Virus record (IMG/VR): IMGVR_UViG_3300009183_000229
Span: 1 to 32,795 of that record
Source of the DNA: a virus
DNA: 32,795 nucleotides
Reading direction: 5' to 3' (one strand)
The translations under genes and the position numbers were made by a program. Position 1 is the stretch's first letter. The number at the start of each line of letters is the position of its first letter. The notes under the pieces are model-generated. The model ran no database searches. It worked only from the letters and a program-made list of their open reading frames with translations, and had not been told where the DNA came from. This document shows, one piece after another, positions 2,905 to 25,900 of this stretch.

Positions 2905-3327
2905 TTACTCTTTATTATTTAGAAAACCTTGCTTTAGTAATTTCTGTAATTCGGAGGTTGATCCAACAAATACGGCATTATTCGTCACATTATTGGTAGT
3001 CTTAATATTTTCATCTTCAATTACACGCATTTTCTTTTGAAGGTCAATTAATTTATCTGCAGCATCACTAACACTTTTTAAAATTTGTCCGGCAACTTCA
3101 TATGCTCTTGGACTGGCAGTTTCTGCTGCCAGTTCCATAATTCCATTTAAAGTTTCTTGTCCCTTTTCAATAATTGAATAATATTGTGCTCTACTATACT
3201 CATAATCTTTTTGAACATCATCAGGTGTTGGTTTTATTAGTTGAATTTTGGGCGAATTTGGTTCAACTTCGACAATACTACTTTCAGTATTCAATGCTGC
3301 GTCAATAGATTCAAAATTATTTGCCAT
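2905..3327 (-). CDS. 16: Terminase small subunit gp16
   Basis: This 140-aa protein matches cyanophage gp16, the small terminase that recognises DNA and regulates the large terminase during headful packaging. Supporting marks are the central helical stretch with QYYSIIEKGQETLNGIMELA and SPRAYEVAGQILKSVSDAADKL, consistent with the oligomerising coiled-coil core, and the C-terminal VGSTSELQKLLKQG. T4 gp16 is about 164 aa, so the length is somewhat short but normal for marine relatives. It starts 13 bases after the TAA of gp15 without an obvious Shine-Dalgarno site, which suggests coupling to gp15 translation. The large subunit gp17, usually next, does not follow here; the 695-aa protein does. 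Confidence 0.85.
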   Translation of the reverse strand: MANNFESIDAALNTESSIVEVEPNSPKIQLIKPTPDDVQKDYEYSRAQYYSIIEKGQETLNGIMELAAETASPRAYEVAGQILKSVSDAADKLIDLQKKMRVIEDENIKTTNNVTNNAVFVGSTSELQKLLKQGFLNNKE

Positions 3328-3340
3328 GTTGATTAACTTA

Positions 3341-4138
3341 TTAAATATCTATATGTTGTGTGGGACTATATGATTTTGAATCATTAAAGTATTCCCAATT
3401 CTCATTGAATCCAAAATCATCATCTGGCGCAGCATCAATTGGATCCGGAACAACAGTATATCTCATCTCTCTCTTAGCATTTACAGTATCTGTACTAGTA
3501 TACATATCAACCTGTACCTTACGAATAAGTCCATCGGTCGTATCTGAAATAGGACCAAAGAGATAAGTCTTTGCGGTAAAATTTAATGTATAAATTAAAG
3601 ATCTTCTTGTAGAAAAGTCACCCTCATAATCATCTTTGAATGAAATTTCATCCAAATTTAAAGGAATATCTCTCCTTTCTCCAATTGAATCTACAAGATC
3701 TACAGTTAATGTAAATGCTGGTTGAAAATATGGTAAAATTTGTTCAACTATTTGTAGGGCATCATCATTTAATTTGCACATGATACTAAGTTGAAATCCA
3801 ATATTATATGGAACAGGCATGTAAACTTTTTTCAAGTTTTGTCCATCCGATGCCTTGAAAGATTGTGTAACCGTTGCCTTTCTTGAAGGATCATATCTTA
3901 TAGAAGTCATTTCGAATGACATTCTGGGCAAAGTAATTTGAACTGGTTTATTTAAATCTGCCTGTTGAGTCAAGCGAGCAAGGAATTTTTGTGTAGGACC
4001 ATATGCTAATGGTACTCTTAGTTCACTATAAGTTTCATTATTTGCATCTTGGTGTTTAATATAAATCTGATTAAAGACAGTACCAAAGGCAATAATTGTT
4101 TTTCTTATAATATGGTGATAGTAGTAAGTTCCTAGCGT
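3341..4138 (-). CDS. 15: Tail sheath stabiliser / tail terminator gp15, with apparent ACG start
   Basis: The frame encodes a full-length gp15 (265 aa; T4 gp15 is about 272), which caps the tail tube and sheath and joins tail to neck. Diagnostic segments are VPLAYGPTQKFLARL, QITLPRMSFEM, VPYNIGFQL, ILPYFQPAFTLTVD and TLNFTAKTYLFGP. The expected N-terminus of cyanophage gp15 is a Met followed by LGTYFYH-like residues; here the codons read ACG CTA GGA ACT TAC TAC TAT CAC, so ACG at 4136 to 4138 stands where ATG should be. An in-frame TGA lies at 4157 to 4159, and the codons between contain no ATG, GTG or TTG. The first conventional alternative is TTG at 3973, which would remove 55 conserved residues. 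The coordinates assume the ACG start. The HNH gene ends 14 bases upstream. Confidence 0.85.
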   Translation of the reverse strand, partial: TLGTYYYHHIIRKTIIAFGTVFNQIYIKHQDANNETYSELRVPLAYGPTQKFLARLTQQADLNKPVQITLPRMSFEMTSIRYDPSRKATVTQSFKASDGQNLKKVYMPVPYNIGFQLSIMCKLNDDALQIVEQILPYFQPAFTLTVDLVDSIGERRDIPLNLDEISFKDDYEGDFSTRRSLIYTLNFTAKTYLFGPISDTTDGLIRKVQVDMYTSTDTVNAKREMRYTVVPDPIDAAPDDDFGFNENWEYFNDSKSYSPTQHIDI

Positions 4139-4152
4139 TTTTCTATACCCGT

Positions 4153-4680
4153 TTATTCAAAACATTTTTTTAAATGAACTCTATGAAATGCTTGCGTTGT
4201 TGTTTCCTTTTTGCAACCTAAACAAGAACATTTTCTTTTTGAGGTTGGATAGTATTTTCCCAATCTGGCATTTCTATAATTTTCTTTTTGTTGTTCCGTT
4301 CTCATTTTACCTGTATTTATTAGTTTTGATCTTCTCGATACTTCTTTTTTTAATTCTGGATTATTATCCCAAAATTTTTTAATATTTTTTTTCGCTTTAT
4401 CTACATTTTTGGGGTCCCACATTGGATTGTTTTCTTTATTTCTTTTTTCACAAGTTTTTTTTGAAGAATTTTTAATTGCCTCCATAGTTGCTTCATATGG
4501 AGTTATTTGCCCACTTAACATTCTCCAAGCAATTTCATCCTCTTTTTTTCCATATTTTTCCCAAAGGATTTTATGAGAATCCGCATGTTCTTGTATAGTT
4601 AACCTAATAAGATTGTCCGGATCATCACTACCACCCATATGTTTTGGTATTATGTGGTGGTTATGATAATAATTTTTCAT
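4153..4680 (-). CDS. Free-standing HNH homing endonuclease
   Basis: This 175-aa protein has an N-terminal HNH nuclease core: HHIIPKHMGG at residues 8 to 17, DPDNLIRLT at about 21 to 29 and EHADSH at about 31 to 36, giving the metal-binding and catalytic histidines and asparagine. A basic region with NNPMW and repeated KK, RR and helical patches follows, resembling the DNA-binding NUMOD-like parts of phage homing enzymes. The C-terminus has CSCLGC and HRVHLKKC, a possible small zinc finger. It sits between gp14 and gp15, which are normally adjacent. Flanks of only 36 and 14 bases leave no room for a group I intron, so it is free-standing. A perfect TATAAATA lies 25 bases before its ATG. Such enzymes cut homologous intergenic sites in co-infecting phages. 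Confidence 0.88.
   Translation of the reverse strand: MKNYYHNHHIIPKHMGGSDDPDNLIRLTIQEHADSHKILWEKYGKKEDEIAWRMLSGQITPYEATMEAIKNSSKKTCEKRNKENNPMWDPKNVDKAKKNIKKFWDNNPELKKEVSRRSKLINTGKMRTEQQKENYRNARLGKYYPTSKRKCSCLGCKKETTTQAFHRVHLKKCFE
4314..4321 (-). promoter_or_regulatory. Late promoter-like box inside the HNH gene (AATAAATA)
   Basis: The minus strand reads AATAAATA within the C-terminal third of the HNH gene, about 175 bases before gp15. It could supply gp15 and gp16 with late transcripts, but a match inside coding sequence is expected by chance in AT-rich DNA. Confidence 0.2.
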
Positions 4681-4705
4681 TGGATAGTATTTTTATCAAC
4701 TACTA

Positions 4706-4713
4706 TATTTATA
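4706..4713 (-). promoter_or_regulatory. T4-type late promoter box (TATAAATA)
   Basis: The minus strand carries the exact T4 late promoter octamer TATAAATA in the 36-base gap between the gp14 stop and the HNH ATG, 25 bases before that ATG. It may originally have served gp15 before the HNH gene was inserted, and now would read first into the endonuclease. Confidence 0.6.
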
Positions 4714-4716
4714 AAA

Positions 4717-6120
4717 TTAATAGTTACCAAATGGATTTGATTCTGAAAAATCTACAATAAGATCAGCCTCCTCTTCAATCTGATCATTTTCTTCATATTT
4801 ATCTGCGAATTCAGATTTATAAACAGTTTTGAGACTGTATCTTGCAGATGATGCAGATCCAACTACTATTTCTCCAGGTTCAAATGTTCCATCAATTACA
4901 CCAACGTCAAGTACTTTGGTATCTTTATCCCAAGATTTGACTCTTGAAGTTGTTCCAGAAATTGATCCAGTAACAACTTCATTAAATTTATATGTTCCAA
5001 TTCCAGTAAGTAATGGGGGAGATGCTATTGTTATACCTGGAGCACTTAAATATCCCACTCCAGCGTCTATGATAAGAATATCAGTTATACTTCCAGAAGT
5101 ACCAACAACTGCTCGTCCTACTGCAGTTATTGCTAAACCTGCAGTAGGAGCTGGTGTAATTGAAACCGTAGGAATTCCTACATAACCTTGCCCGTAAGTT
5201 TGAATTCCAATATTCCTAATTCCACGATAACCTGTAACTATTTCGCATGAAGCTTCGGCACCTCTTCCACTACCGTTCGGATAAATTGTTATAGAAGGTG
5301 CTACAGTATAACCTGACCCGGTATTTACTAATAAAATTTCTTTAATAGAACAAACACCCCCCCTGCATGTAGTGAATGCAACTGCAGTAGCTGTTGTCCC
5401 CCCGAATGGAGCTGGTGTAATTGAAACGGTAGGAATTCCAACGTAATCATATCCATCATTTGAAAGAGTAATTTTTCTCACATATCCACTTCCAATACCA
5501 GAAGATGCAGTTGCTCTTTGACCAGATCCAAATAACTGTAAAGAAGTTATATAACCTTGAGATTGTAAAGTAGAATCAATCTCTTCAACAGTTGTATTTG
5601 AATCAGTAAATCCACCAACTTCATCTTCAAGTTCAAATAATTCACATTGAAGTTCATAAACATAGGTTTTTCCTAGTTGATAAAATGGTTTTTCATGTTC
5701 TACAAATTTAACTTCAAATAATCTTTTACCTAAAGGAAAATAAACAATATCACCTTCTCTTGGACGAGTTGTGAGTATAATCTCCTCAGGATCCATAGAA
5801 GATAAAAATGGAGAAATGAAATCTTCAAATCTTTCCTTTGAAATAATTAGAGTTAATTCATCCTTCAAACTCATTCCAAATTTTGTTAAGATATCCCCCG
5901 ATCCCATATAACCATCATAATTACTTACATATGCTTCTATAGCAAAATTATCATCAAATCTTGATGAAGTAACTTCTCTTATAATGGTTTCTTGTCTTAC
6001 AAATTTTCTTGGTATATAAGTTACTTCTACACCATAAATTTGTAACTGCTCATTAATTAATTCCTGAATAAGTCTTTGTTCTCCAGGAGATCCTTGTAAA
6101 AAGAACGGATTGAGTGCCAT
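4717..6120 (-). CDS. 14: Neck protein gp14, enlarged by inserted beta-repeats
   Basis: The N-terminal 200 residues match T4-like gp14, which with gp13 completes the head and connects it to the tail. Marks are MALNPFFLQGSPGEQRLIQ, GVEVTYIPRKFVRQE, IREVTSSRFDDNFAIEAYVSN and DIVYFPLGKRLFEVKFVEHE. The protein has 467 aa against about 256 in T4. The excess is explained by residues about 215 to 373: repeats of the form G-x-GY followed by PTVSITP or APSITIYP and a Gly/Ala strand. The conserved C-terminus resumes with KFNEVVTGSISGTTSRVKSWD and ends in ESNPFGNY. Its ATG overlaps the stop of gp13 (TAATG), so translation is probably coupled. Confidence 0.85.
   Translation of the reverse strand: MALNPFFLQGSPGEQRLIQELINEQLQIYGVEVTYIPRKFVRQETIIREVTSSRFDDNFAIEAYVSNYDGYMGSGDILTKFGMSLKDELTLIISKERFEDFISPFLSSMDPEEIILTTRPREGDIVYFPLGKRLFEVKFVEHEKPFYQLGKTYVYELQCELFELEDEVGGFTDSNTTVEEIDSTLQSQGYITSLQLFGSGQRATASSGIGSGYVRKITLSNDGYDYVGIPTVSITPAPFGGTTATAVAFTTCRGGVCSIKEILLVNTGSGYTVAPSITIYPNGSGRGAEASCEIVTGYRGIRNIGIQTYGQGYVGIPTVSITPAPTAGLAITAVGRAVVGTSGSITDILIIDAGVGYLSAPGITIASPPLLTGIGTYKFNEVVTGSISGTTSRVKSWDKDTKVLDVGVIDGTFEPGEIVVGSASSARYSLKTVYKSEFADKYEENDQIEEEADLIVDFSESNPFGNY
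5000..5485 (-). repeat. GxGY beta-repeat insert in gp14
   Basis: Four to five copies of a roughly 40-residue module are visible, each with a G-x-GY or GYDY turn, PxVxI strand and Ala/Gly-rich strand. At DNA level a 20-base stretch (GGAGCTGGTGTAATTGAAAC on the plus strand) occurs at 5147 to 5166 and again at 5408 to 5427. The spacing of 261 bases is 87 codons, so the duplication is in frame. Confidence 0.75.
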
Positions 6121-6962
6121 TATCCAATAAAATCGTAAGGTGGAAGTTCATAATCCATTGACATCCTTTCTCTTATTGCTTCAATTTCTCTTTCTGCATC
6201 GTCATATAGTTCTCTACCATTTAATTCAATACCACCAGGCAATTTAACTCCTCTAAATTTAATTAGATTTTGTCCCCACTGTCTTTTTATTAATGCTGTA
6301 AGATACCTTTTAAGAAAACTATCGTTATAAACTTTAGTGAAATCATTTGGATCCAAAATTCTATAGCAATCAATAACAAAAAATGTATCCTTCTTCTGTG
6401 CTCCCCAATCAATATCCAAATACATTCTATTTTGTCTTTTATTAAATCTTATTTGTTTATCAGTTTTTAATAGAAAATCAATATCTTCTAGATATGTTTT
6501 TACCATTGCATACTGTAAAAGTTCAACAGAATTGAAATAATAAAGATCATTTAAAAATAGTTGATATTTGATACTAAACATTCCACCAGAAATATCGCTA
6601 GTATCAAATTTAAATACTTTTTCAATTCCTATAACTGAATCTGGAATTTGAATAAAATTTGACGATTCATAAAAATTAAATGATGTAGTACCAATTCCAC
6701 TAATATTTGCAGATCCTGTAGTGGTCACAATTCCTACACCTGTTGTTCCTGTGGACTTTCCTCTATTAAGATCATTTTGTGTAACTTTATATTTCAAATA
6801 CATTCTCTCAACACCATCAAAATGCCTCTCATAGAAGTACTGGAGGGCATCATCGACCAAATCATCTACTTGGTCATCATCTACGTTAATCTCCAGTATA
6901 GGGGCACCTAGGCGCCTTAGACAATAATTTATAAGTTCTTGGCGAGTAGTTGGTTTTGCCAT
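6120..6962 (-). CDS. 13: Neck protein gp13
   Basis: This 280-aa protein matches T4-like gp13 (about 309 aa in T4), a head-completion and neck protein acting with gp14 at the portal vertex. Key segments are RQELINYCLRRLGAPILEIN, the acidic DDDQVDDLVDDALQYFYE, IPDSVIGIEKVF, KDTFFVIDCYRILDP and the C-terminal YDDAEREIEAIRERMSMDYE. A short Gly/Thr/Ser stretch at about 70 to 95 (GTTGVGIVTTTGSANISGIGTTS) interrupts the family pattern mildly. Start and stop both overlap the neighbours by one base (TAATG on each side), placing it in a tightly coupled four-gene set with the 113-aa, 116-aa and gp14 genes. Confidence 0.88.
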   Translation of the reverse strand: MAKPTTRQELINYCLRRLGAPILEINVDDDQVDDLVDDALQYFYERHFDGVERMYLKYKVTQNDLNRGKSTGTTGVGIVTTTGSANISGIGTTSFNFYESSNFIQIPDSVIGIEKVFKFDTSDISGGMFSIKYQLFLNDLYYFNSVELLQYAMVKTYLEDIDFLLKTDKQIRFNKRQNRMYLDIDWGAQKKDTFFVIDCYRILDPNDFTKVYNDSFLKRYLTALIKRQWGQNLIKFRGVKLPGGIELNGRELYDDAEREIEAIRERMSMDYELPPYDFIG

Positions 6963-7861: not shown

Positions 7862-8054
7862 TTTTTTCAAGTAATTGTTTTAGTAAAAATTTTATCTCAC
7901 TTATTTCACTTTTTATACCATCAATTTCTCTTTTTTGAGAATCTTTTACATTTAGTGAACTAACATATGTATTATATGCCATAGTATCACAATTAACTAT
8001 GGCACCAGTTTCTTCATCTCTATACAAATTTGTATATCCTTCAACTCGTATCAT
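7848..8054 (-). CDS. Small conserved phage protein with C-terminal coiled coil (68 aa)
   Basis: The protein starts MIRVEGYTNLYRDEETGAIVN and continues with NTYVSSLNVKD. The C-terminal third (KREIDGIKSEISEIKFLLKQ) has heptad-like spacing of hydrophobic residues and is probably a coiled coil. Proteins with the VEG-NLYRDE-TGAIVN pattern are common in T4-like cyanophages, near the neck genes. The ATG overlaps the stop of the 2,418-aa gene by four bases (ATGA), a strong coupling signal. Function is not known; an assembly helper or minor virion component would fit the place and size. Confidence 0.72.
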   Translation of the reverse strand: MIRVEGYTNLYRDEETGAIVNCDTMAYNTYVSSLNVKDSQKREIDGIKSEISEIKFLLKQLLEKNEPI

Positions 8055-11000
8055 CTTACTGCAATTGTTCTAAGTTGTTTGACTATTGGAGCATATGCTT
8101 GATTAGTTCCAGACATTACAATTTTGATTGTATATCCTGTAAATAAATCAAGATTATCTGCAGTAAATTGATACTCCAAGAATTGATTGTTTAAACTTGG
8201 ACTTACAAATACATCAGGTCTTCCACTATTTTTGGATTTATCTAAAATAGAATATCCTTCATTGGTGGTATATTTTAGATTATCATAACCAGGGAATAAC
8301 TCAAATGCTTGAGGAATTTCGCTAGAGTCTGCTCTGATTAAACTATATAGAACTCTAAAATCTGATGATTCATGACGATAAGCAGATAAAATAACTTTTA
8401 AAGAAGATGCTGCCTGTGTCAATCTGACTGTATTTGAAACATAAACTGCAGAATGTGGATCATATACTATAGAATTAACTCTTCCGTCAGATGCATAATC
8501 TGAAATTGGTGTATTCAATCTATTGCTATAAAACTCAGTCTTATTGTTATCACAATAAATTATTGGAGATAAATTCTTATCGCTGGTATTTAAAACTATT
8601 CCTGTAGTAAATGATTTATTTCTTGCCAAATTGTCCAAATAGGTGATCTCATTTATATTTGAGCATACCAATCTTGTAGTAGTTAATTTGTTAATTTTAT
8701 TCAATTGTATTGGTTCAAATTTATTATCCAAGAATGAAGTTTCATTTCCAGAAATACTAGTACCAGTTACAGATCTAATAGATGCAGTAACAGAAGTTGA
8801 AGAACTTGGAGTTATAACATCATAGTGTGGAACTATAGCATCATATTGTATATTTTCCGTTCCCATAACTTTGGATCCACCCAAAGTTTGTGTATTTGTA
8901 AATGATAATTGTGGAGCACCTGTTAAAGAATTATCTAAAGATCTATTCGTTCCTTTTGCAGATGTTCTATCGATTTCGACATAATATCCATCCAATTCAA
9001 TACCAATATCACTAATATCATGAGTTGTATTAATTCTTCTGAGAGAAACTCCATTCAATTCATATTTGTATACTAAAGTATTAGTATTGGATTTATGTTC
9101 TAAAATAGTAGTAAAATCTATTCCTCTACCTAGTGTATTCAATACACCAGTACCAACAGTTTGATAACTAATAATTTCATTTTCAATTTTTACATATCCA
9201 GGATTATTCGGTCCTACTGGCATACCTTCAAATGTTACAAAATTTGAAGTATCTCCAATACTAATACTATTAACTTCAGAATTTGATAATGTTGAGGTGA
9301 GTACTGCTGGAGCAATATTGGATTGAGCGTCACTTAAAATTAATTTATTTGTCTTTGCATACATTCCATGATCAAAATGATCAACCCATATAAAGTTTCC
9401 AGAATTTTGATCAGTTGGAATCGATTTACTTGTAATAACTGTTGCTCCAAGACTAACAATTGCTCCTGAATTGTTGTAGTAACTTAACCCAGCACCTACA
9501 GTAAAATCTTCTGCCTGAACTCCTCCAAGATATAAAGTATCAATACTTCCATTTACAGCAATACTAATCCTCGCACCGTTTCCAGTATTTCCTGCAGTTG
9601 ACGTTACAATACCGACTACATCTCCATTAGCATATCCATTACCCGGAGATACTATAATTGGAGTCCCACTAATTACTCCAGAAGATGCCGTGATATTCAA
9701 TATCAAACCAGATCCATTTCCAGTTATTGGGAATGTTTCTACATTGGAATCAGAAACATAATTTTTTCCACCCGTAGTAAGACCAACAGACGATACTGAA
9801 CCTCCCGTCCCAACAATATATCCATACCTGATTTTGGTTGCACTTTCGGTTATTTTTCTTCCAGTTGTTAAAATACCAATTACTGAAGAACTGCTTGTAG
9901 TAGTAATTCCAATTTTTGCAGTTTTACCTAATGTTGTTAATGGATTTTCAATTAAATTTTTAACATACTTATTACTCTTATCTAATGTTGGATTGTAGAA
10001 GAATGCTGTACCAGTATTTGCTGTAAATTGTGCCTTATAAAGTTTAAACTTGAGATCTTGATACTGATTTGCTGTCCATATAGATCCATTTTGGGATTTA
10101 AATAGACTTCCCATAGAAAATTGTGTAGTGTATCTAACACTTTCAGCATTTGGTAATGAAATAGTATTTACAGTCTTTTCACCCATTACTGCAGTCCATA
10201 ATTCGTATTTGTCACTTGATTCTGAAACAATAACGATTGCATATTCTCTACCAGGATTCAAGAATATTGGATAATCAAATACCACATTAGTCGCAGTTTC
10301 TGCATTATCTGAGATATTTACTTGGTCTGGTCTTAATGTTACTGGACTTCCAATAATAGTTCTCGTTGGAGTTCCCAGTTCGACCGTTCTTATTTCAATT
10401 TTTACGGGACAATTACCAGTATCCTTTTTAGCAAAGAATAAGTCAACAGCGGTTAAAAATGCACCATTCACATCATCATTTGTATTAATTGGGTTTGGTG
10501 CCTCTACATTTCCACCAACAACAAATGTTTGCGCTAAAGGATCATAATATCTTGCAATGGTTTCGGTATTTCTACTTACCTGCGTTATTAATGTATTTGT
10601 TGTAGTTTTAGTTGTTGTAACTATATTTTCAAATTCTTCAACTATACCTTCAGAAACATATGTAGATTCTGCGGAAGAAATATCACTACTTCCAGGAAGA
10701 GATGATGCATTAGTTGAACTTGATGTTAGTTTAAAAGTTTTCTTTCCAAGATGAATGCTGACTGTTGGTGCAGGATTTGTATTTGGATCTCTAATAAAAA
10801 ATGATCCAATTAAATCACCATAATTATCGGATATTAATCTAAGGTCTTTTACATATGCAACTGCACCACTATCTTGACCAACTAATTGCATACCTTTGAT
10901 TAGATATCCAGAATATTTTCCTTGAGATCCTTGTGATAGTGAATGTGTATCAACGTTCAAAATTTTTGAAGATGAACTATATGATGAAGGTAATACTTCA

Positions 11001-14000
11001 TTTGGTAAATATGGATTTATTTGATATGTTGTAGATGGAGAACTATATGATCCGTACTTATGATTTCCAGATGCAACTCTAAATTCAATTAAGTTGTTAC
11101 CATTGTAACTACCTACAACGGTTTCTCCAACTTTAAATGATCCAGATGCTCCATAGTTCTGTAAAGATTCATCATTTGCAATCTCCACCAATTTTGGAAT
11201 AAAATCTACGGAACTATTTCCATCAAAGAATTGATAATATTGTGTTTTTGGTGCAAGATTTGATACCAAAAATTCAGTATTTCTAGATCTCATAAAAGAT
11301 TCTTCATAAGATCCAACAAAGGTTCTTTCGCTAGTTACATCAGTGTTTGTAGTTGAACTTCTTATTTCCTTTTTATTTTCGGTTATCACGTATTCATTCG
11401 ATACCAGTGCTCCCGAACCAGTGCTTGAATTTGAAGTTGTATCTTGCCCCCTAATTGATCCAAGATCAAGATTTATATTTTTAGTAATTGAAACTTGTCT
11501 ATTTGGAAGTTGAACAGTTCTAACCCAGCGATCTTCTTCTGGTGTTAATTTTACATCTCCACGATATACAATGATATTAAATGGATTTACATTTTCAACT
11601 GTAGTTGCAAAAGGTTGCTCTATCCATCCAATAGAATCATATTTTAAAGTTACTGCCTTTCCTGTTTTTTGAACATTTGGATCCAACAATTCAAAATTTA
11701 TATTTAGATCTAATTTTTCATCACTTATATATTTTGCTGGTGCAAGTTGAGGTGCTAAAGAATTTCTACTGATGATTGGTCTCAATTCTTTAGCATCATT
11801 ATTCACTTGTATTTTGGAAATATCTAAATTGATTAAATCGTAGTTTTTAAAATCATCTACAAAGAATCCTGATTTAAATCTATCTTTTCCATCAGCATCT
11901 TGAATTTGTAGTGTTTGCGTATTTACTTCGAGTAATGAAAGTGAAGTTACTCTTTCTAAATTTTCAACTCTATCTTCAATTTTTCCAATATCTCTCATAG
12001 TATATCTTCTGTTGTCAACAAGAGTTATTTTTGCATCTTGTTGTCTATAGAGATATGGTGGCAAAGTAATAGTGGCAAGTTCCATTACCTCATTATTTTT
12101 TGCGGGAGATTTTGGATTAATATCGGATACTCCTTTATTAATGAATATTTTTCCAAATTTATCCACATATAGTTTATCAATTCTTCCCAAATAATAACTA
12201 TATCCTATAAGAGAACTTTCATTTGGTGATAAAATAAGTTTTGGAGAGGATGTAAAATCTCTTTGAGAAAAATCAAACGGTGAAGCACTTGTACTTGTAA
12301 ATACAGGAACTCTTGGTCTAAAATCAAGAGTATCCGAAGCCCTTATATTTTTTGGTCCAATACTTGGAATATCATTTGTAAATCTTGATTTATCATAACT
12401 TAATATAGTAAATACATCACCAGTATCATTAGTTGGTACAGTATAATGATCAAATACAACTAATAAGTTTTTAGCAGGTACGGTAGTATTTTGATTTCTA
12501 ACAATTCTAGAATAATCATAATATTGGTCTTTTTGACCACCATCCAATCTATATGAATTTGTAATATTTTTATATTTTCCTAATGTTATTGATATAATAT
12601 CTGTAGTAATATTGGATTCTTCAAATACTACATTTTCTCCAGCAGAAAACGTATTCTCATTCAAATATACAATTTCTAACGCATTTGGATTAGAAATTGA
12701 TTTTTTTACTACTCGTGCTATTGCTTTACTTGAATTTCCCAGTATGTTTTCACCAACTACTGCATTTGTCGATACATTAGTACTGGAACTAAATTCAATT
12801 TGATCTAATGTTGGACTATTGGTATCAAAAGATTCGTAAATTGCAATAATTTTAGATACATCAGGATAATTTAAGGAAATTTCTTCATCCTGTACTCTCA
12901 ATCCATAAAATCTATTATATGTCAATCCATCATTTAATGTTGTATTAATACCAACTCCAGATTGGGGATACTTTGATAATGATATATTAATTATTCTACT
13001 TCTACTATACTCCTTTATTTTACTTTGAACACCATTTTTAACTAAGGATGCATTAACAATAGTTCCAGTATCAGATGATTTGTTTAGATTGTATACTGTA
13101 ACATTATTTCCTGATAATAAAAATTTATCGGAAGTTAGTTTTTCAATTACACCATCTGAGTAATGAATTGAATATCTTTCTGCATCAAATGGTAACAGAT
13201 ATGAACTTGTAATTCCAGTAAAATCTGAAGTACTGAAAGTTAAAGTACTTGATACAACATTCGTTGTTATTTGTGCAGAAATAGAAAGATTTGAATCTGA
13301 TAGATCAACTGATGAAATGTTTTTATCTGGTAATTGTGCATATAGATATCCAGAATTTTCATTTCTTATAAATGGAGATCCAATTGAAATGTCATATTCT
13401 GCAGTTGAGGGTAATGTACCATCACATATTCCAGAAACAGATACACCGAGTGCTACAACGGTCATTGTTAAACCATCAGGAGAAACCCCAGTTACCCTGT
13501 TAAACTTTTCATCCGTTCCACTTGCTACTTGATACCTAATAATACTACCTACTCTTACTCCAGTAAAAACCTTAGATGGTGAAGTTATTGATCCACCAGA
13601 AGTAATTGTTGCTTTAGTTACTCCGTTCGGAAGAGCAAATTTTTCTAATTGTAGATCTGCGGTAAAGGTTGGAAATCCTGAAGTTGATTGATATACTGAT
13701 TTAATATCCTGAGTTGAATAAACTGTAATTTCTGTAATAGTTCTTGAAGAATCTAATCCATCAATAACAATTTGTTCTCCGACTGAAAATGACCCGGAAG
13801 TTTGCCTTAAACTGACAGATGTTCCACTACCATCAGAAACTGAATAACCACTTGCTCCACTACTTTTTCCTTTAACAAAAGATGTTGTCTTTAATTCTGA
13901 AGATGAAACCGCAGAATTTAATGTCAATACAGTATATGTTTGAATATCATAAAGATATAGATCCCAATTAGTTGTTGCATTAGAGTATGATGCATCGGTT

Positions 14001-15307
14001 ACATTAAATGCATATACCCTAGCACTACCAATTACGGATCCAGAATCACCCTTTCTTCTATTATATAATGAAATTGGATATCTTTCCTTTGGTGCTCCCG
14101 CTGCATTATTAACTCTTAAAATATTTCCCATTTCGAATGGAATATTCACCCTAGATACATTTTTAGTATCTCTTGGTTTTGCAACATCAAGAATGGTTGT
14201 TCCAATTTTAACAACATCATATCCCTTTACATACGATTTTCCGGGAGATACTTTTACGCACATCAAGTCATCTGATGGTGTATTAAGTTCTTCAGTTTTC
14301 TCATCACTAAAGAAAATTCCATTATTTCCTAATCTATCATTTAATGAATTATGAATAGATGGAATAAATGGTTCGATGGAATAATCACCAGATTCATCAT
14401 AAGTTCTTTGTGCAAGATAATCCTTTATAATATTATATTGAGTTTTAGTTTCAATCTTTTTAAGTTTACCATCTTGAACTCTCAATAATTCAACAAAATC
14501 TGTATCGTTTGTATCAGTTAAGAGTTTTTTGGTCAATACTAAGTTAATTTTAAATCTATCTGCACCTGGTGCGGCATAATTGGTAAAACCCTTTGCATTA
14601 TCATATAATGTTTTGTCATCTTTAGATGTGATAATTAACTCATCAATTTTTAAACCAATTCTATATGAGGGAGTATTTGTGTAAGAATCTAAAAGTATTG
14701 TTTGATCTGTTACATTAGCAAAATAACCTCTAATAAAGTAAACTCCATTTCTGATTGAAGCTGCAGAACCTATGGAAGTTGCATTTGTAGAGATTAGCGA
14801 AGCAAATGGTGTTCCCGCATTAATTGTAGTATTACCATAAGTTACATTCTCATTGGCAACTAATGATTCACCATCTTGGAATGGATTGAAAATAAAATTA
14901 TTATCAGCATCTAAGTATTTTACATATATTGTTAATTCTTCGATATTATTTCCATCAGGCAAAGCAATATATTGAATTACTGCTGTTGTTCCGGAAGATT
15001 GTCCTGTTATCTTTAAACCTTTAAAATAATTAATATATAATGAAATATCGACTCCAAAATTAGTTGAATTGAGTTTTGCTGAATAAAACTGTCCATCATA
15101 TCCAATATTGCCAGGAATCACCATAGATCCTTCTTTGAAGATATTACTTCCAAAGGTTTCTATTTGATTTTGTAAGATAGACTGTAGAGTTGTTAATTCC
15201 CTAGATTGTACCGGCCTTCCAGGATTGAACAGTACTTTATAAAAATTATCCTTAGGATCAAAGTCATCATAATATGGATTAATGTTTAAATTTGTTTTTT
15301 GTGCCAT
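8051..15307 (-). CDS. Giant DUF4815-type baseplate/tail structural protein (2,418 aa)
   Basis: The N-terminus, with NPYYDDFDPKDNFYKVLFNP, GRPVQSRELTTLQSILQNQI and FGSNIFKEGSMVIPG, is the signature I recall as DUF4815, found in phage tail proteins. Later parts include DNWEDxxWVRT-like text (EEDRWVRTVQLPNRQ), and about residue 1,589 onward DPLAQTFVVGG with a beta-rich domain typical of these proteins. About 1,832 to 1,925 holds GxGY beta-repeats, and about 2,040 to 2,075 a RG-x-H module (EIISYQ, LGRGID, LEHK). The C-terminus (LEYQFTADNL, FTGYTIKIVM) is a typical phage beta domain. It follows gp8 and occupies the T4 positions of genes 9 to 12 and wac, none of which is otherwise recognisable. A peripheral baseplate or fibre-attachment role is inferred. 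The ATG is five bases after the gp8 stop. Confidence 0.8.
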   Translation of the reverse strand: MAQKTNLNINPYYDDFDPKDNFYKVLFNPGRPVQSRELTTLQSILQNQIETFGSNIFKEGSMVIPGNIGYDGQFYSAKLNSTNFGVDISLYINYFKGLKITGQSSGTTAVIQYIALPDGNNIEELTIYVKYLDADNNFIFNPFQDGESLVANENVTYGNTTINAGTPFASLISTNATSIGSAASIRNGVYFIRGYFANVTDQTILLDSYTNTPSYRIGLKIDELIITSKDDKTLYDNAKGFTNYAAPGADRFKINLVLTKKLLTDTNDTDFVELLRVQDGKLKKIETKTQYNIIKDYLAQRTYDESGDYSIEPFIPSIHNSLNDRLGNNGIFFSDEKTEELNTPSDDLMCVKVSPGKSYVKGYDVVKIGTTILDVAKPRDTKNVSRVNIPFEMGNILRVNNAAGAPKERYPISLYNRRKGDSGSVIGSARVYAFNVTDASYSNATTNWDLYLYDIQTYTVLTLNSAVSSSELKTTSFVKGKSSGASGYSVSDGSGTSVSLRQTSGSFSVGEQIVIDGLDSSRTITEITVYSTQDIKSVYQSTSGFPTFTADLQLEKFALPNGVTKATITSGGSITSPSKVFTGVRVGSIIRYQVASGTDEKFNRVTGVSPDGLTMTVVALGVSVSGICDGTLPSTAEYDISIGSPFIRNENSGYLYAQLPDKNISSVDLSDSNLSISAQITTNVVSSTLTFSTSDFTGITSSYLLPFDAERYSIHYSDGVIEKLTSDKFLLSGNNVTVYNLNKSSDTGTIVNASLVKNGVQSKIKEYSRSRIINISLSKYPQSGVGINTTLNDGLTYNRFYGLRVQDEEISLNYPDVSKIIAIYESFDTNSPTLDQIEFSSSTNVSTNAVVGENILGNSSKAIARVVKKSISNPNALEIVYLNENTFSAGENVVFEESNITTDIISITLGKYKNITNSYRLDGGQKDQYYDYSRIVRNQNTTVPAKNLLVVFDHYTVPTNDTGDVFTILSYDKSRFTNDIPSIGPKNIRASDTLDFRPRVPVFTSTSASPFDFSQRDFTSSPKLILSPNESSLIGYSYYLGRIDKLYVDKFGKIFINKGVSDINPKSPAKNNEVMELATITLPPYLYRQQDAKITLVDNRRYTMRDIGKIEDRVENLERVTSLSLLEVNTQTLQIQDADGKDRFKSGFFVDDFKNYDLINLDISKIQVNNDAKELRPIISRNSLAPQLAPAKYISDEKLDLNINFELLDPNVQKTGKAVTLKYDSIGWIEQPFATTVENVNPFNIIVYRGDVKLTPEEDRWVRTVQLPNRQVSITKNINLDLGSIRGQDTTSNSSTGSGALVSNEYVITENKKEIRSSTTNTDVTSERTFVGSYEESFMRSRNTEFLVSNLAPKTQYYQFFDGNSSVDFIPKLVEIANDESLQNYGASGSFKVGETVVGSYNGNNLIEFRVASGNHKYGSYSSPSTTYQINPYLPNEVLPSSYSSSSKILNVDTHSLSQGSQGKYSGYLIKGMQLVGQDSGAVAYVKDLRLISDNYGDLIGSFFIRDPNTNPAPTVSIHLGKKTFKLTSSSTNASSLPGSSDISSAESTYVSEGIVEEFENIVTTTKTTTNTLITQVSRNTETIARYYDPLAQTFVVGGNVEAPNPINTNDDVNGAFLTAVDLFFAKKDTGNCPVKIEIRTVELGTPTRTIIGSPVTLRPDQVNISDNAETATNVVFDYPIFLNPGREYAIVIVSESSDKYELWTAVMGEKTVNTISLPNAESVRYTTQFSMGSLFKSQNGSIWTANQYQDLKFKLYKAQFTANTGTAFFYNPTLDKSNKYVKNLIENPLTTLGKTAKIGITTTSSSSVIGILTTGRKITESATKIRYGYIVGTGGSVSSVGLTTGGKNYVSDSNVETFPITGNGSGLILNITASSGVISGTPIIVSPGNGYANGDVVGIVTSTAGNTGNGARISIAVNGSIDTLYLGGVQAEDFTVGAGLSYYNNSGAIVSLGATVITSKSIPTDQNSGNFIWVDHFDHGMYAKTNKLILSDAQSNIAPAVLTSTLSNSEVNSISIGDTSNFVTFEGMPVGPNNPGYVKIENEIISYQTVGTGVLNTLGRGIDFTTILEHKSNTNTLVYKYELNGVSLRRINTTHDISDIGIELDGYYVEIDRTSAKGTNRSLDNSLTGAPQLSFTNTQTLGGSKVMGTENIQYDAIVPHYDVITPSSSTSVTASIRSVTGTSISGNETSFLDNKFEPIQLNKINKLTTTRLVCSNINEITYLDNLARNKSFTTGIVLNTSDKNLSPIIYCDNNKTEFYSNRLNTPISDYASDGRVNSIVYDPHSAVYVSNTVRLTQAASSLKVILSAYRHESSDFRVLYSLIRADSSEIPQAFELFPGYDNLKYTTNEGYSILDKSKNSGRPDVFVSPSLNNQFLEYQFTADNLDLFTGYTIKIVMSGTNQAYAPIVKQLRTIAVR
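9530..9815 (-). repeat. GxGY beta-repeats in the DUF4815 protein
   Basis: Two to three copies of the module are visible: SSVGLTTGGKNYVSDSN, TPIIVSPGNGYANGDVV and the Gly/Asn-rich strand between them. They share the turn and strand pattern found in gp7, gp8 and gp14. Confidence 0.65.
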
Positions 15308-16901: not shown

Positions 16902-19900
16902 TTATTGTAGCAATGCGCCAGTCAATTGAAATCCACCATTTCTTCTTTGAATAGATGGGAAAGTTGATAATCCAACATCTACAGTTTTACCAGATACACC
17001 GATAGAAACATTAGAACCTCCTACAAATCCAGATAATCTTCCCCAAGAAAATTTCCCAACAGGATTTGATATAGTACCAGTTGTTGCTATTCCAACAACT
17101 GAAGTATTTGAGTTTATGTTTGAAATTACTACAGCATCTGATCCTGAAGGTGTAATACTATGTACGTAGTAAATATTATCCAAGAAAGTGGATCCAATTC
17201 CAACAATTGCAGAATTTGAACTATCTATAGATGTAACACCTGCTCCAACCGAAGTATTGTTAATATAAATTGGATAACCTGTCGTGAGACCTGTTCCACT
17301 AAAAGAATCTGCACGTAGATAGAATTTCAGTGCCAATGGATTACCACCTGTTCCTGTAGTAGTTGTGATACCAGTAATAATTCCAGAAAAACCTTGAACT
17401 ATTGTAATTTCAGAAATATATTTTGAAGATATTGAAGGTAATTGAACAATAACCTGAGGAATTATTCCAGTACTATATCCCAATCCAGGATTTGTGATGT
17501 TAATCGGAGTTGTTAAAGTTCCTGCAGCAGAAACTGTGATAGTTGCTGTTGCAGTAGATCCAATACCAACACCTACACCCATAGGTAGTGCTGTTAAAAT
17601 GCCAACTGTCAATGGTGTAGAAATTTTAGCAGTAACTGTTGAACCAGTATAACCACTTCCGGGATTTGTGATTGTTAATGACTGAATTGTTCCTGCAGCA
17701 GAAACTGTGGCAGAAACTGCACCAGATATGGGATCTGGTGTTCCAGAAATCACTAAAGCATCAAATTTAATACTTCCTGGGGCATTTAATTCATAATTAA
17801 ATACATTTACAGTTTGTCCAATTCCTGGTCCATAATCGATAAAGATTTCATTATTTACTGACGAAAAATCTTTAATTATTTTTGCTGTTGGATAAATACG
17901 AGATTCTAAAGAATCTCTTGTCTTATAAGTAATATTACCATTAATTACAGAATCAACTTTTTGTTTAGTCCAACTAATAGGTTTATCATTTACTGTATCA
18001 ATACTTTCCAAATCAGAATATAGGTTAGTTTCAAATTTGTCAGAATAAGATAAATTAAAAATAGTTCTTTCATTTTGAGATACTGTTCCTGGAATATTGT
18101 TATTTTTAAATATCTGTACAAAATCACCTTTCTTTACAGTTGGAGTTACATTGTATTGCTTACTATCTTCTCCTGTAGTTCCTCTATAAAAGAATATTGA
18201 AATATTGTCTTCTTTTTTTGGTGCTGTTGTAAATACAAAAGATGTACCACCATTAAAATTATAAGATACTCCAGGATCCTGAATTACTCCATTTATAATG
18301 ATTAATAATAAATTATTTAAATCTATTGGAGAATTATTTGCCGTTTCAAAACTAAGTAGTTCTGAATTATAAAATAATGGGAATCTTGTTCTAATTCCAT
18401 CCTGATAATTTTTTACAGAATCGATATAATCAAATTCTCCAAATTGCCAAAAAGCAAAGGAATCTGTAAAAGTATCTAAGACAGTTAATGTAAATTCTGA
18501 CAATGGTGATGATAATCTTCGATCTGTAACTAAACCAACAGGTTTAAATACATCACCACGTCTAAATGAATAACCTTGTCTTGATATTTTAAATGAGGAT
18601 ACTTCAAAATATGTTGATCCAATTCCAGTTGTAGAAGTAGGTTGTACATCAAGAGATAGTAGTAAACCAATTCCAGTAGTAGATGTTGACCCAATACCCA
18701 ATCTAGAAACTCCACTAATTTCTAGATTTTCGTATGAGGGAGGAGAAACAAATATTTTGGGATTGGTATATCCTGTTCCACCATAACCAATTGAAAATGC
18801 TAAAGTTCCTCCAGCACCAACAGTAGCAGTAATAATAGCTGTGGATCCAACTCCTGCATGTCCACTTTGATACACTGTAACACCAATAGATACAATTCCA
18901 TTATATCCGGAACCTAGAATATCAGTAGTTCCAAATCCGACAGATACTATACTACCACCCGCACCAACTACAGCAGTAACTGCTGCGCCAACAAGAGGTG
19001 CGTATCCCAACCCAATTGAAGAACCAAGAGAAATAATTAAACCACCTCTTGGAGTTTGATTTTGATTAACATCATATATTGATGTGATTATATTACCATT
19101 ATCATCAGTTATTCCAGAAAATACAACACTTGTTATTCCAGATCCACCAGAAGAAGTTTCAATAATTTTAAAATTATTTGATGGATTGTTATTGGTACTT
19201 GGAGTTTGGAAAATGCCATTTATGAATAGAATTCCATTTTTAGCAGTAGTACCTAAACCAACAGTATTTGCACCACCAACAGTTAATGTAAAAGTTCTAC
19301 CTATTCCTGTAAATTTATCTGAAATATCATCATATATTTTATTTGTAGTATAATCATTTCTGAGATATACTCTTCCTGCAAAATCGGAAGTTTCAAAAGT
19401 TAAATTACTAGAATCTCTGATTATCTGTGGATTTCCCCTTGGGGATTCTGCAAAAAATATACTATTGCCTACAATATTATAAGATCCTTTATAAATTCCA
19501 GCATTAGTGGAATCAGTATGTGTGGTAGCAGATGATCCCACAAAACCTCTAGAAACTAGTACTAAAGGAATTGAACCACTATTGGTAATAGGTCCTATAT
19601 TTGTAGTACCAAGTCCAACTGACACAATATTCATATATTCATTATCAACTTTCAGAATATCTTTGGGGAATATTGATGAAATACCAGATAGTGCAATATA
19701 AGTTGAATCTGTACCAATTTGTCCACCATTTCCAGATAAATTATAATTTATTGGAGTAAATGTTAATGGATATTGGGTAACATTGTCAATACTAATAATT
19801 ACCTTTTCATTTTTCTTATCCATTTCAAGTTTATGGGCATTTCCTAATCCATAAGAAGTGAATGTTACTCCTATACCAAGTAAAGCATAATCTTTTCTAG

Positions 19901-22900
19901 TAGACAGTTTAAAGGTATCTTCAGAATCTTTAATAACATAAACTTCTGATGGCAATCTATTAGTAACAATCCCGGCAGAATTTAATGTAGATCCTATTCC
20001 TACTGCACTTTCACCTATTCCAATGAATGTGGATTTTGGTGTATAGATGAGTTTTTCTGCATTACTAAAGAAATGATTGGATATTGTAAATATTCCAGTA
20101 GAAGGATTTAGTACTAAACTATCCTGAGGATTAAAAGTTTTTGCAAAAATTGGATAATTATTAGAAGTCAAATCGAATTCGGTTCTATTCACTCTATTTC
20201 CATTAATTCCATTATAAAAATAAACATCAATTGATTCAGTTACCGATCCATAACTCAAATCTTCTGGCACATTAACAGAATCTAAAATATTATATAAACA
20301 TTCATTAAAGGATGAGATTTTAATTTGTCCAGTTATATTTACATCTGGATAGAATATCAATTTAAAATCATTTCCTGAATATACACTACCAAAAGTTCCA
20401 ATACCATTCATATTTCCAATAGAAGTGAAATTTTCTTGTTGGACATAACTATCAGTATTATCATGAATTGTTAATATTCTATGAATTGCGCTTGTTGTTC
20501 CAACACTCACTCTTACCAATGATCTAATTGCATTGAAATCATTGGCATTTGTAGATATTATAGTTGATGCGGAAGAAACATTTGATGAATAATTTGATTG
20601 TAAAATTGCTGATCTTTCATATCCATCAACTTCTCCTATCGATTTAAATCTGTATACTCCAGTTCCAACTGCCGTCGTCCCAAATCCAACAATTTTTGAT
20701 CTAATACTAACACTATTAGTTGAATTATTGGTATAATTTAGTGATAAAACTCCAGAAGAAATATTTGCACCAAATGTACCTATCAAATTTCCCGAATAAT
20801 TGTTTGATGAGGATTCTGAATCAAAATAATATTCTGAAATATATGTATTAGTTCCATCATAATTTAGATATAATTCAACAAAATTCATTTGATTTGAATT
20901 TGTATTGATTATCTGAACATTTGCATACAATCCTTCAATCTTATTAGATGGAATAGAAATAATGGAATTTGTTAAACCAGCATTTACAGTTATATTTGAT
21001 CCAGTTAAGTCTATAAATCCTATAGATTTAGTTCCAATACCTGTTAATGTAGAATTAAAGTTACTTTTAATTACTTTAATATCATAATCATAATCGTAAG
21101 GATTTGTTGGATTGAATCTCAAATATGTATCATCATAGATATCAGTAATAATTGAAAAGTTTCCATACTCTTCTGTTGAGTAACTAGTAAATCCTAACCC
21201 TACATTATATGCTGTTCCTTTTTGTAAAATAAAAGTATCATTTGAATTATTCAATAAAACAATTTCTGTTAATTGAATTTTTGAATTTTCTGGATCAGTA
21301 ATTCTAAACAATAAATTATCATATGATTCTGAGGAATCAATCTTTAATATATTTAAAAATTCTGAAGGTGAACCATCTTCATTGGAAAATCTTGAACTTA
21401 TGTTATCAATTTTCAAAACTCTATTACTAATACACTCAATATAATCAGATAGTCTCTTAGTTTTTAATTTTATGAATTTTGATTTGTCATCAATTAAATC
21501 AACATCAGTAGATAAATCAAAATTATAAATTGTATCAACTCTATTTTCATTAATTATATTATTAGTTGTGGTCAAATATTCCTTAGAGGAAAGTGTAAAT
21601 TTTGCACTTGATGTAATTCCAGTATCGGAGAAGTTTTTTAATCCACTAGTATGAAGTAAACTATTTACGGGAGTTCTTAGATCTTCATACTGAATGGGAC
21701 TTTTTATTGTATACGCAAGATTTTGGTAATAATCATTATCAGAAATTGATTGATTATCCTGATTCAATTTTCCAATATCATTTGACCAACCATTGGTTTT
21801 TCTTACTGAATAGTTAATTTCAAATTTTCCAAAATTAGCATTAATTTTACTTATAGTTGCAATATTTCCAGATTCTTTTCCAGTTATAACTTCTCCTACT
21901 GATAATTCATAGGATCCATATACTTTAATGAAATTATTATCAGAATTTGCAATAATAAGATCTACTTCATTACCGTCTAATATAATTTTTTCACCAACTA
22001 AAAATGAAGATGATTTTTGAGTTACTTTGAAAGTCGGATAATCACTATATTTTACAATATTTCCAGATAAATCTTGAATTGTTTTTGCAATCCCAGTATT
22101 TGATGTTAGAGAAGAAATATCAACTGTTACTTTGACTGAAGTACCAGAGTCATTATAATTACTTACTGTGAAAAATTTATATCCATAATCCTTAGAATTA
22201 AATCCAGATCCACCAGATCCATATTTTTGTATTCCTTCAACAAAAACTTGATCACCAATATCAAATGGTCTAGTACTAAAACCTAATGTTGGTGTAGTTA
22301 TTGCACATGTAAAAATACCAGTAGATGAAGATTCCACTTTTTCAATACTTATACCATTTGTATTATTGGTAGCAAATAAATTCACAACTGTTGATGGTAA
22401 TCCTTTTGGTTCTTGTAAAATATTAACAGAAGCAATAGAACTACCAGTCAAAATCGCATTTAAAATTCCGCTATCAATTTCTTCTCCAGTTTTAGAATTA
22501 ACAATTTGAATTGATGGTGCATATGTATAATTTTTTCCTGAATTTATAACTTCAATATTAGAAATTGTATTAGAATTATCTATTGTTATGAGTGGGGATA
22601 TATATGCAATTGGATTTAAGGTTTTATCTGAAGAATATTCAAATCCCTCATTAATAATTCTTACTTCTTTTGGATTTCCTATTGTAGTGGATTTTGGAAC
22701 AATGTATGCACCAGTTCCGTTTTCAGAATTTGAACCAGTAAAAATAGGTAATTTTTTATATCCAGTTCCCCCAGAAATAATATCAATCTTATCAATTGCA
22801 CCTTGTGCGGATTTTGAACTAGTTGAGTATTCTAAAACACTACACTCACTTTGAGAATATGATAATTTTTCTGGAATTGTATTTAGTGATATGCTAAAAG

Positions 22901-25900
22901 TTGTAGACCCTATTCCAAATACGTTATAAGATTGTTTATATGCACTATCTACAAATAGTATTTGTGACGCATTTACGACTTCCTTATCGGAAGTGCTTAT
23001 ATATCCAGATTTTTCCAAATTATAGTATAATTTGTCAGATAAATTTTCATCATATGTTATACTCAATGATGCTGTTGATGATACTCCCACAGTTCCAACA
23101 CCAATCAATGAAAATGTATTTGCGGATCCAGTGGAAACAAATTCATTGTTAAAATCTGCATCATAATAAATCTTAAATTCATATCCTAATAAAGAAGAAT
23201 CTGATAAGTTAAATACCAAATTGTTATTTTTTATAGATTTTATTTGTGGATTTATTCTTGAAATAGTCTGATTCGATCCACCAGTACTCCCAATACTTAC
23301 AGTGATTGGTGTATTTTGTGTACAATCACTATAAGTCTCCGAAAGTTTAATAGTGTTGTCATCAATTTTATAAATGTAATATGCTCCAGTTGATAATCCA
23401 GATGCAATTATATTTGCAGAATATAAAACTTTATCACCAGTATTTAAATTGTGAGAATTGATTGTAATTCTACTAGTTGATGTATTAATGCCAGTGGAAT
23501 TAAATCCAATAGGATTAATTAAAATATTTCCTGTAGTTGTATCTCTCTTAACAGAAATTGATGTTGAAGTTCCAATACCCACCGAAAGATTTGGTTTAAT
23601 ACTCAAATTAATAATATCTCCACCAGTTAACTCATGATAAGTTGAAACTGAAACTGTGGATTTAATTTTCTTCACATTTCCAATTACCTGAGTATAAGAA
23701 CTTTCAAAGGAATATCCATCATTATCATCTCCATTGCTTCTGAAGAATACTTCTTGACCATTTATTTGAGTTTTTATACCTATAGTGTTTATATTTTTAT
23801 TTGCAATATAGACAACACTTGGCAAATCAATTGGAGATGCTGATGCAGAGGTTGATATTGAAATGGATGCTGCGCCGTTTGTATTAAATACAACTTGCTG
23901 ATTATCTTTGAATGGGTGATTTTCAATAAAAATTCCTTTTGTTGGAACTGATCTTGTAATAGTTGAATCACCAAAAGAAAAAGTAATTGAGTTTGTAATT
24001 CCTGTGGTTGTACCTACACCTACAGATTCTCTGGGATTAAAATAAACTTTATCATTTGGTTTAGAATCAAAATAATCTATATTTTTTGAAATTATAAATG
24101 AATTTGGAATGAAATTTATTTGCGTTGTCGCAGTATGTGATACTCCAGTTAAACCTCTCTGAACCTTTAAGATATTTAAATTTTCAAATACTTCGAGAAC
24201 TTTTAAAGTTTCACTACCAATCATAATGCTACTTCCAATTGATATTGCTTCTAATGGGAATTGTGCAACATAAATTTCTGTAGATAATCCTGCAGTTGAT
24301 GAAGTTACTGTAGAAATACATGAAGATGTATATGAAGTAACTCCTATTTTATATGATCCATTTAATTTTGCTAAATTAGTTGAAAATCCAGAAATTATAA
24401 CAGTATCATTATCTGATAAATTATGATTTGGTAAAATAGATATGTTTATCTCACGTTCATTCTTCCAAGAAAAAATGGCGTTTAAATAATTTTCTGTAGA
24501 TGTGCTAACATTTACAATATCTTTTCCTTTTATGGATGAAACCTTAGATAATAATCCTCCACCCGAGGTATTAGTATTATCAAATTCCAAAGAATCTCCA
24601 ACTTTGTAATTTAGTCCAGAGTTTAAAATATCAAAATCATTTACATATCCTTCTGTAACCGATTCAATGACTGATTTTTGTTGGGAGAATTCATTAGACT
24701 CCACTATAAAATCATTGTTAGCATATTGATCAGAAATTTTATATGGGAAAGTATTTCTAATTAATTTTGAATTATTGAAATCGAATGATTGATCGATAAT
24801 AGAATTATCTTCTATAAAATTTGATCTATATCTATTACCAATAAAATATGGGAAAATTGGGTTAAGAGTTTGGGGATCAATCGTTGCAAAATATGCATAA
24901 ACGCCATTTGGAAATTCCTTTGTTTTTCCAAATCTTCCATTATATTCATCTAAGTCACCAGAATTTGTGTAGATATAATCTTCAACAAAAAATCCATTCG
25001 CAAAGTTATTTGGTCTGTCAATAATATTTGAAGTATTTAATGTATATCCAGAAGTTAGTGCCTTTTTCTCAGAATTTAGATTTGGATCTGGATATCCATA
25101 TGGACCATATATTGGATTTCCATCATAAGACCATCCAATAATTGGGGAATGATCTGAGTTATCATCTTTCAATGAATTTTTTAAAGTTTCAAAATACCCA
25201 CAAACAGAATACTGTAAAGTATCTCCATTATCTAATAATAACTCATTACCAAATTTTACATTATTAAGTAGAGTAAGTGATCGCACATTTGCATCAAAAA
25301 GTGCATTTATTCCCGAAGGTTTAACTTGGATACTAGTTGATGTATCAGAATATCCTATACCAGGATTAATTACAGTTACATTAGCAATTCTTCCATTAGA
25401 TATAGTTGATTTTAGTTTAGCCCCAGATCCAGAACCAGATGCATCACTAATAATCAAGTCTGGAATGGAATAATAGTCATATCCAGCATATTGAATTGAA
25501 ACAGAATCCAGCATTCCATTAATAATTACTGGTTTTAATTGTGCTTCTTTTCCATTTTTTATTGATACTGATGGTTTTTTATGGAAATTTAATATTGTTG
25601 TTCCATAACCAGTTCCATTTTCATAAAGATATGCATCAATTATACTTCCTCTAACAGTTGGTGTTGCTGTAATTGAATATACTTGAGTTGTAGTACCAAA
25701 ACCAACTGGAGAATATGTTACAGAAACTGAAATATCTGGATAACTGAAGTATTGATATCCTGATCCTGTAGATAGCAACTTAGTATAGTTCTTTCTAACA
25801 TAATTTGATAAGTTAGTTCCACCAATTCCAGCATCACACAATCTGAAAGAATTATCATCTAACTTTGAGATATAATATTGATTTATTGTTGTCAATCCTA

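Follow-up and report, generated by a model that had tools for sequence, protein, structure and literature searches.

How translation of a tail gene begins when its conventional start codon is missing is the question raised by gp15 in the viral DNA analyzed here (IMG/VR record IMGVR_UViG_3300009183_000229; the window is the whole 32,795-nt stretch). The gene codes for a T4-type tail completion protein, which matches PF16724 (T4-gp15_tss) over its full length with an E value of 9.5e-88 and the solved T4 gp15 (4huh/3j2m) with an E value of 2e-26. A sequence-only reading of the window had described the gp15 frame as intact and full length yet without its usual start, and our analysis agrees, with all coordinates correct. 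The minus-strand frame runs unbroken down to TAA at 3341, and in the alignment ACG (4138-4136) stands opposite the Met codon of relatives. As also noted in that reading, the frame is closed upstream by TGA (4159-4157), 21 nt before ACG, and the next in-frame ATG, GTG or TTG in the ORF list is a TTG at 3973, 55 codons inside. An in-frame ATA lies upstream, and no AUG, GUG or UUG is available to the gp15 N-terminus. Following the gp14 TAA, the window carries a stretch of about 578 bases: TATAAATA, a 175-aa HNH-like ORF and then TGA ATA AAC GGG TAT AGA AAA ACG CTA GGA, with the six codons from ATA to AAA separating TGA from ACG (Table 1).

Table 1. Features at the gp14/gp15 junction of the window
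Feature	Coordinates	Strand	Basis
gp14 (neck protein)	4717..6120	-	ORF list; insert-free relatives L003-L006; S-SRM01 orthologue annotated neck protein
Inserted segment between gp14 and gp15	4139..4716	-	Missing from L003/L004 (93-94% gp15 identity); gp15 tree
T4-late-promoter-like TATAAATA 5' of HNH gene	4706..4713	-	Sequence; also in spacers of most HNH-free members
HNH endonuclease-like ORF, 175 aa, stop TAA 4155-4153	4153..4680	-	Pfam HNH; orthologue at same S-SRM01 site
Conserved block TGAATAAnCGGGTA, proposed gp15 translation-initiation signal	4146..4159	-	0-1 parsimony steps per site except n; kept in all HNH-decayed members
ATA, proposed gp15 start codon, overlapping HNH stop as ATAA	4154..4156	-	Invariant in 41 sequences
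Codons TAT AGA AAA, coding-like evolution in gp15 frame	4139..4147	-	18 third-position versus 5 first/second-position steps
ACG in place of ancestral ATG, most likely an internal Thr codon	4136..4138	-	Sequence; alignment; IMG/VR pattern searches
gp15 frame from ATA to stop, proposed product M-NGYRKT-LGTYYYH...	3341..4156	-	Sequence; PF16724; parsimony steps

One option left by the earlier reading, that the ACG is a base error or a minority variant, is contradicted by independent sequences. Contig IMGVR 3300027759_001664 (L002) is identical to the window in its 3' end and gp15. Synechococcus phage S-SRM01 (MW015081), a cultured isolate with a complete genome, has the order gp14-HNH-gp15 and ACG at the same codon, and the window matches it in gene order through to the terminase small subunit. 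About 50 further IMG/VR stretches, recovered by searching for ACG plus gp15, also have ACG as the first gp15 codon, and most of them are without an HNH gene. Because ACG recurs in an identical contig, in independent contigs and in an isolate, error and minority variation are excluded. The same IMG/VR pattern search with ATA, ATC or ATT at that codon gave a single match, L165, the sole member with ATT for ACG (locus position 3339), in which the upstream frame is retained (IIGYKK-I-LGTYYYH).

S-SRM01 also bears on whether the gene is expressed. It is a purified isolate whose particles have a contractile tail (PMC8557907), and tblastn finds a single gp15 match in its genome; hence ACG-type gp15 must be expressed. 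Its gp15 record (L082, MW015081.1 123171-123851) begins at an internal ATG, codon 40, and is 39 conserved residues short, as the true N-terminus has no ATG. Read at face value, that annotation would fit a gp15 that is dead or made only as a truncated product from an internal start, but we consider this extremely improbable, given the tailed particles, the single gp15 match in a complete genome and the clear protein-level constraint on codons 2-39 in ACG members.

The earlier reading had tied the loss of the start to the adjacent HNH insertion, and the N-terminus comparison that it proposed, between relatives with and without the HNH gene, bears this out. In the insert-free close relatives L003-L006, the gp14 stop and the gp15 start overlap as TAATG, and the window's gp14 TAA (4719-4717) is the TAA that would overlap the gp15 ATG; ACG is found in members both with and without HNH. 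The insert is intergenic, and empty sites are seen in L003/L004 and L038. Its ORF matches only part of the Pfam HNH profile (E = 6e-4; 20.3 bits versus a cut-off of 21.4). The window and S-SRM01 carry the HNH gene at the same site, and its product shows 92.6% identity between them, against 77.7% for gp15. In a gp15 tree that includes phages with and without the insert, there are at least eight changes between the two states. The window nests with L003/L004 and S-SRM01 pairs as sister to L038, all three of these relatives being insert-free, and each placement has support 100. These patterns fit repeated lateral gain of the insert at one site, the ACG flank being carried along. Judged from such comparisons, the ACG arrangement is genuine, conserved and imported by a mobile element. 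A search of window positions 3300-6200 found no group I intron and no other intron family. S-SRM01 and S-SKS1 also contain other HNH relatives, which are distant.

The 3' end of the element reads TGA-ATA-ANC-GGG-TAY-RRR-AMR-ACG, and its fate can be compared with that of the HNH frame. The window, S-SRM01 and L149 have an intact frame. It is broken in L094 and L089, has internal deletions in L161, L189 and L196, is cut down to its last codons in L108/L126 and L215, and is missing from the large L057 clade and from L159, L163, L165 and L213, with the inserts of L163 and L213 only about 30 nt long. Through all of these states, the terminal stretch up to A(CG/TT) is kept without an indel in all ACG/ATT members (16 haplotypes, one with AGG for GGG), with no change at all in TGAATAA or the C. 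Directly upstream of the block, the spacer of the HNH-free clade varies freely. Since the terminal stretch is kept in every state of HNH decay while the spacer is not constrained, it must be needed for something besides the HNH gene.

A group of sequences that regained an ATG is informative in this regard. L063, L049, L075, L123 and their relatives have a remnant of the element with a one-base shift that gives ATG (GGATAATCGGGTATAGAAA ATG) and leaves ATA out of frame. In this group the block is eroded (TGGATAA, TTGATAA, AATAGGG), which indicates that its constraint is relaxed once an ATG exists. Such erosion is expected if the block would act as the start signal when ATG is absent. Elsewhere in S-SRM01, at other genes, the motif has only imperfect matches, and it has no match in cellular genomes. 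A conserved RNA hairpin was considered and rejected, as the folds of three representatives were not better than those of shuffled sequences.

To follow evolution codon by codon, we counted parsimony steps per site on the gp15 tree (41 sequences). The block TGAATAAnCGGGTA has 0 or 1 step per site, except at n (6 steps). Codons -3 to -1 (TAY RRR AMR) show 18 third-position versus 5 first- and second-position steps (binomial P = 1.3e-5), and the third-position excess is also seen for all six codons after TGA (P = 0.0025), although the steps are partly non-independent because the element moves between phages. Within the HNH-free clade alone, 8/11 steps fall at third positions (P = 0.009). At third positions, TAY has only T/C and the two codons that follow have only A/G, all of them synonymous transitions, and the peptide is kept as (I)(N/I/S)(G/R)Y(R/K/G)(K/T)(T/I). 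The nine bases upstream of TGA (-30 to -22) have 11, 14 and 17 steps, with no codon periodicity. These data argue that TAY RRR AMR ACG is most likely translated, with ACG an internal Thr codon. If these codons are read, the start must lie between TGA and TAY, and ATA is the only AUG-near-cognate codon always present between TGA and the coding-like codons.

Among several possibilities, the earlier reading had proposed ACG or the upstream ATA as the start. The latter is the best-supported option, and we think that gp15 translation probably begins at the invariant ATA, by AUA initiation. Three observations count against this. A conserved Shine-Dalgarno sequence is absent upstream of ATA, where positions -30 to -22 are variable and A/T-rich; starts without a Shine-Dalgarno sequence are the usual case among those of the window. 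Moreover, ATA has been upgraded to ATG in 0/41 sequences, which requires either selection for low expression or another role for the site. Third, the first two codons after ATA (ANC, GGG) show neither third-position variation nor periodicity, and from this invariance it follows that the block carries an additional nucleotide-level constraint, one that a plain start codon does not explain.

The other half of that proposal, that ACG itself is the start codon, is less likely, as the codons before it evolve in a coding-like manner. Here, the upstream block would be a ribosome-binding leader, with CGGG placed 9 nt ahead of ACG, or else a promoter followed by a short leader. ACG does sit exactly at the ancestral ATG site, giving a product of ancestral length, and is retained in all but one sequence, the exception (ATT) being another near-cognate start; the conserved block is also located at leader distance. 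However, an ACG start leaves unexplained why variation at -7, -4 and -1 is synonymous only while neighboring sites are mostly fixed, why the A-run has no indels, and why TGA and ATA are invariant. That the third position of ACG has changed so little (1 step) is unexceptional, since values of 1 or below are seen at 8% of gp15 third positions. Starts with a second-position mismatch, such as ACG, are generally weaker than those with a third-position mismatch, and we count this against ACG as well. Taken together, these considerations make an ACG start unlikely, though still the leading alternative to ATA. A phage tRNA reading ACG as a start was tried as a candidate and rejected: S-SRM01 has Thr(TGT) and no CGT. 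Its tRNA-Met looks like an elongator, as it begins with a normal G-C pair.

Gp15 might instead be reached from an upstream frame, by readthrough of TGA, by a frameshift from the HNH frame at TTTTGAATAA, or by termination-reinitiation at the overlapping stops. HNH-bearing members do have ATG TTT TGA in frame before ATA, as the earlier reading observed for the window, and in them the HNH stop overlaps ATA as ATAA. But the HNH gene is absent from most members, and L119, L192, L193, L198 and L215 have no ORF started by ATG, GTG or TTG that ends at TGA or the overlapping TAA. Given these five sampled sequences, the stop readthrough suggested earlier is not the general mechanism. A -1 slip on TTTT leads into TGA. 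We regard this class of explanation as improbable; translational coupling may add to initiation where an upstream ORF is present. Ribosome bypassing from gp14 was likewise discarded, as the last gp14 codons (TAT, TTC or TTT) match no landing codon.

A still less probable route is an event at the RNA level that restores AUG, either splicing of the insert (AT^G) or a C-to-U change of ACG. In several members, the AT after the gp14 stop joined to the G of ACG would yield ATG, but S-SRM01 has TAAGC after the gp14 stop, and joining there yields no ATG. The inserts of about 30 nt in L163 and L213 are too short for a self-splicing intron, there is no intron family match, and the ATT of L165 is left unexplained. 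Phages are not known to edit mRNA from C to U.

We propose that, in a family of cyanobacterial viruses, the stop-start overlap of gp14 and gp15 (TAATG) was invaded by a free-standing HNH homing-type element, and that this would have cut gp15 off from its ATG while the element's own 3' end supplied a replacement start. Ribosomes would begin at ATA, a rare start codon, right after TGA, with AUA read by initiator tRNA, such that the first Met of gp15 would be replaced by approximately M-(N/I/S)-G-Y-R-K-T and ACG would be an ordinary Thr codon. The HNH gene would then be free to decay, whereas the tail of the element could not be deleted, because gp15 would now depend on it. More tentatively, and with a probability that we place low, TGAATAAnCGGGTA could be a dedicated, transferable cis signal that directs efficient non-AUG initiation without a Shine-Dalgarno sequence or upstream translation, spread by the HNH element and making an essential virion gene dependent on it.

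Parts of this scheme have precedents. Free-standing homing endonuclease genes of T4 (segG/gene 32 and others) carry promoters of downstream essential genes, which favors retention of the endonuclease (PMC2988022). As with segG/gene 32, the HNH gene is intergenic and beside an essential gene, and the element would hold an expression signal of the gene downstream; here, however, the signal would be a translation start at the 3' end of the element that persists once the endonuclease gene has gone. In S. aureus, AUA starts are documented for infC, ccpN and citZ, with those tested giving ∼10% of AUG reporter output in poor medium, and the conserved AUA/AUU starts of infC, ccpN, citZ and cvfC1 reportedly depend on an extended Shine-Dalgarno motif (PMC13009471). 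The gp15 start would similarly be a conserved non-AUG codon expected to lower expression. Unlike the S. aureus cases, it has no Shine-Dalgarno sequence, its conserved block spans and follows ATA, and it belongs to a phage virion gene and would have been spread by a mobile element. In T4, gene 60, which is decoded by ribosome bypassing, lies next to mobA. There, too, insertion of an HNH-type homing gene is tied to unusual decoding of the adjacent phage gene, but gp15 shows no match of take-off and landing codons, and HNH-free members have no upstream frame from which to bypass.

On these comparisons, the gp15 case most likely unites known ideas: an element holding the translation start of an essential neighbor, and initiation at a non-AUG codon brought in by a free-standing homing-type gene. 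In the openly accessible literature, we found no earlier report of a homing element that holds its neighbor's translation start. An essential virion gene appears to be run from a conserved, imported non-AUG start in many phages and over long evolutionary time. The locus would illustrate how the translation start of a neighboring gene can be captured by a homing element, with natural stages that run from a complete element to none, and the 14-base block that persists provides a small, direct system for AUA initiation without a Shine-Dalgarno sequence. The case also explains why automated gene calling shortens or overlooks gp15, S-SRM01 being an example.

Several minor observations were made along the way. 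The gp15 of S-T4 (L218 1498-1714, MH412654.1) is annotated from an internal start despite an upstream ATG overlapping the gp14 stop (TGATG). In S-SKS1 (L083 3498-4290, NC_020851.1), gp15 is unannotated and distributed among three frames; one of the breaks falls at a homopolymer run of A (GGTAAAAAAGTT), and the breaks are probably sequencing errors. Finally, the minus strand of the window contains two very long ORFs upstream of the neck genes, at 8051-15307 and 16902-28862 (2418 and 3986 aa), which probably code for fibre or baseplate-type proteins.
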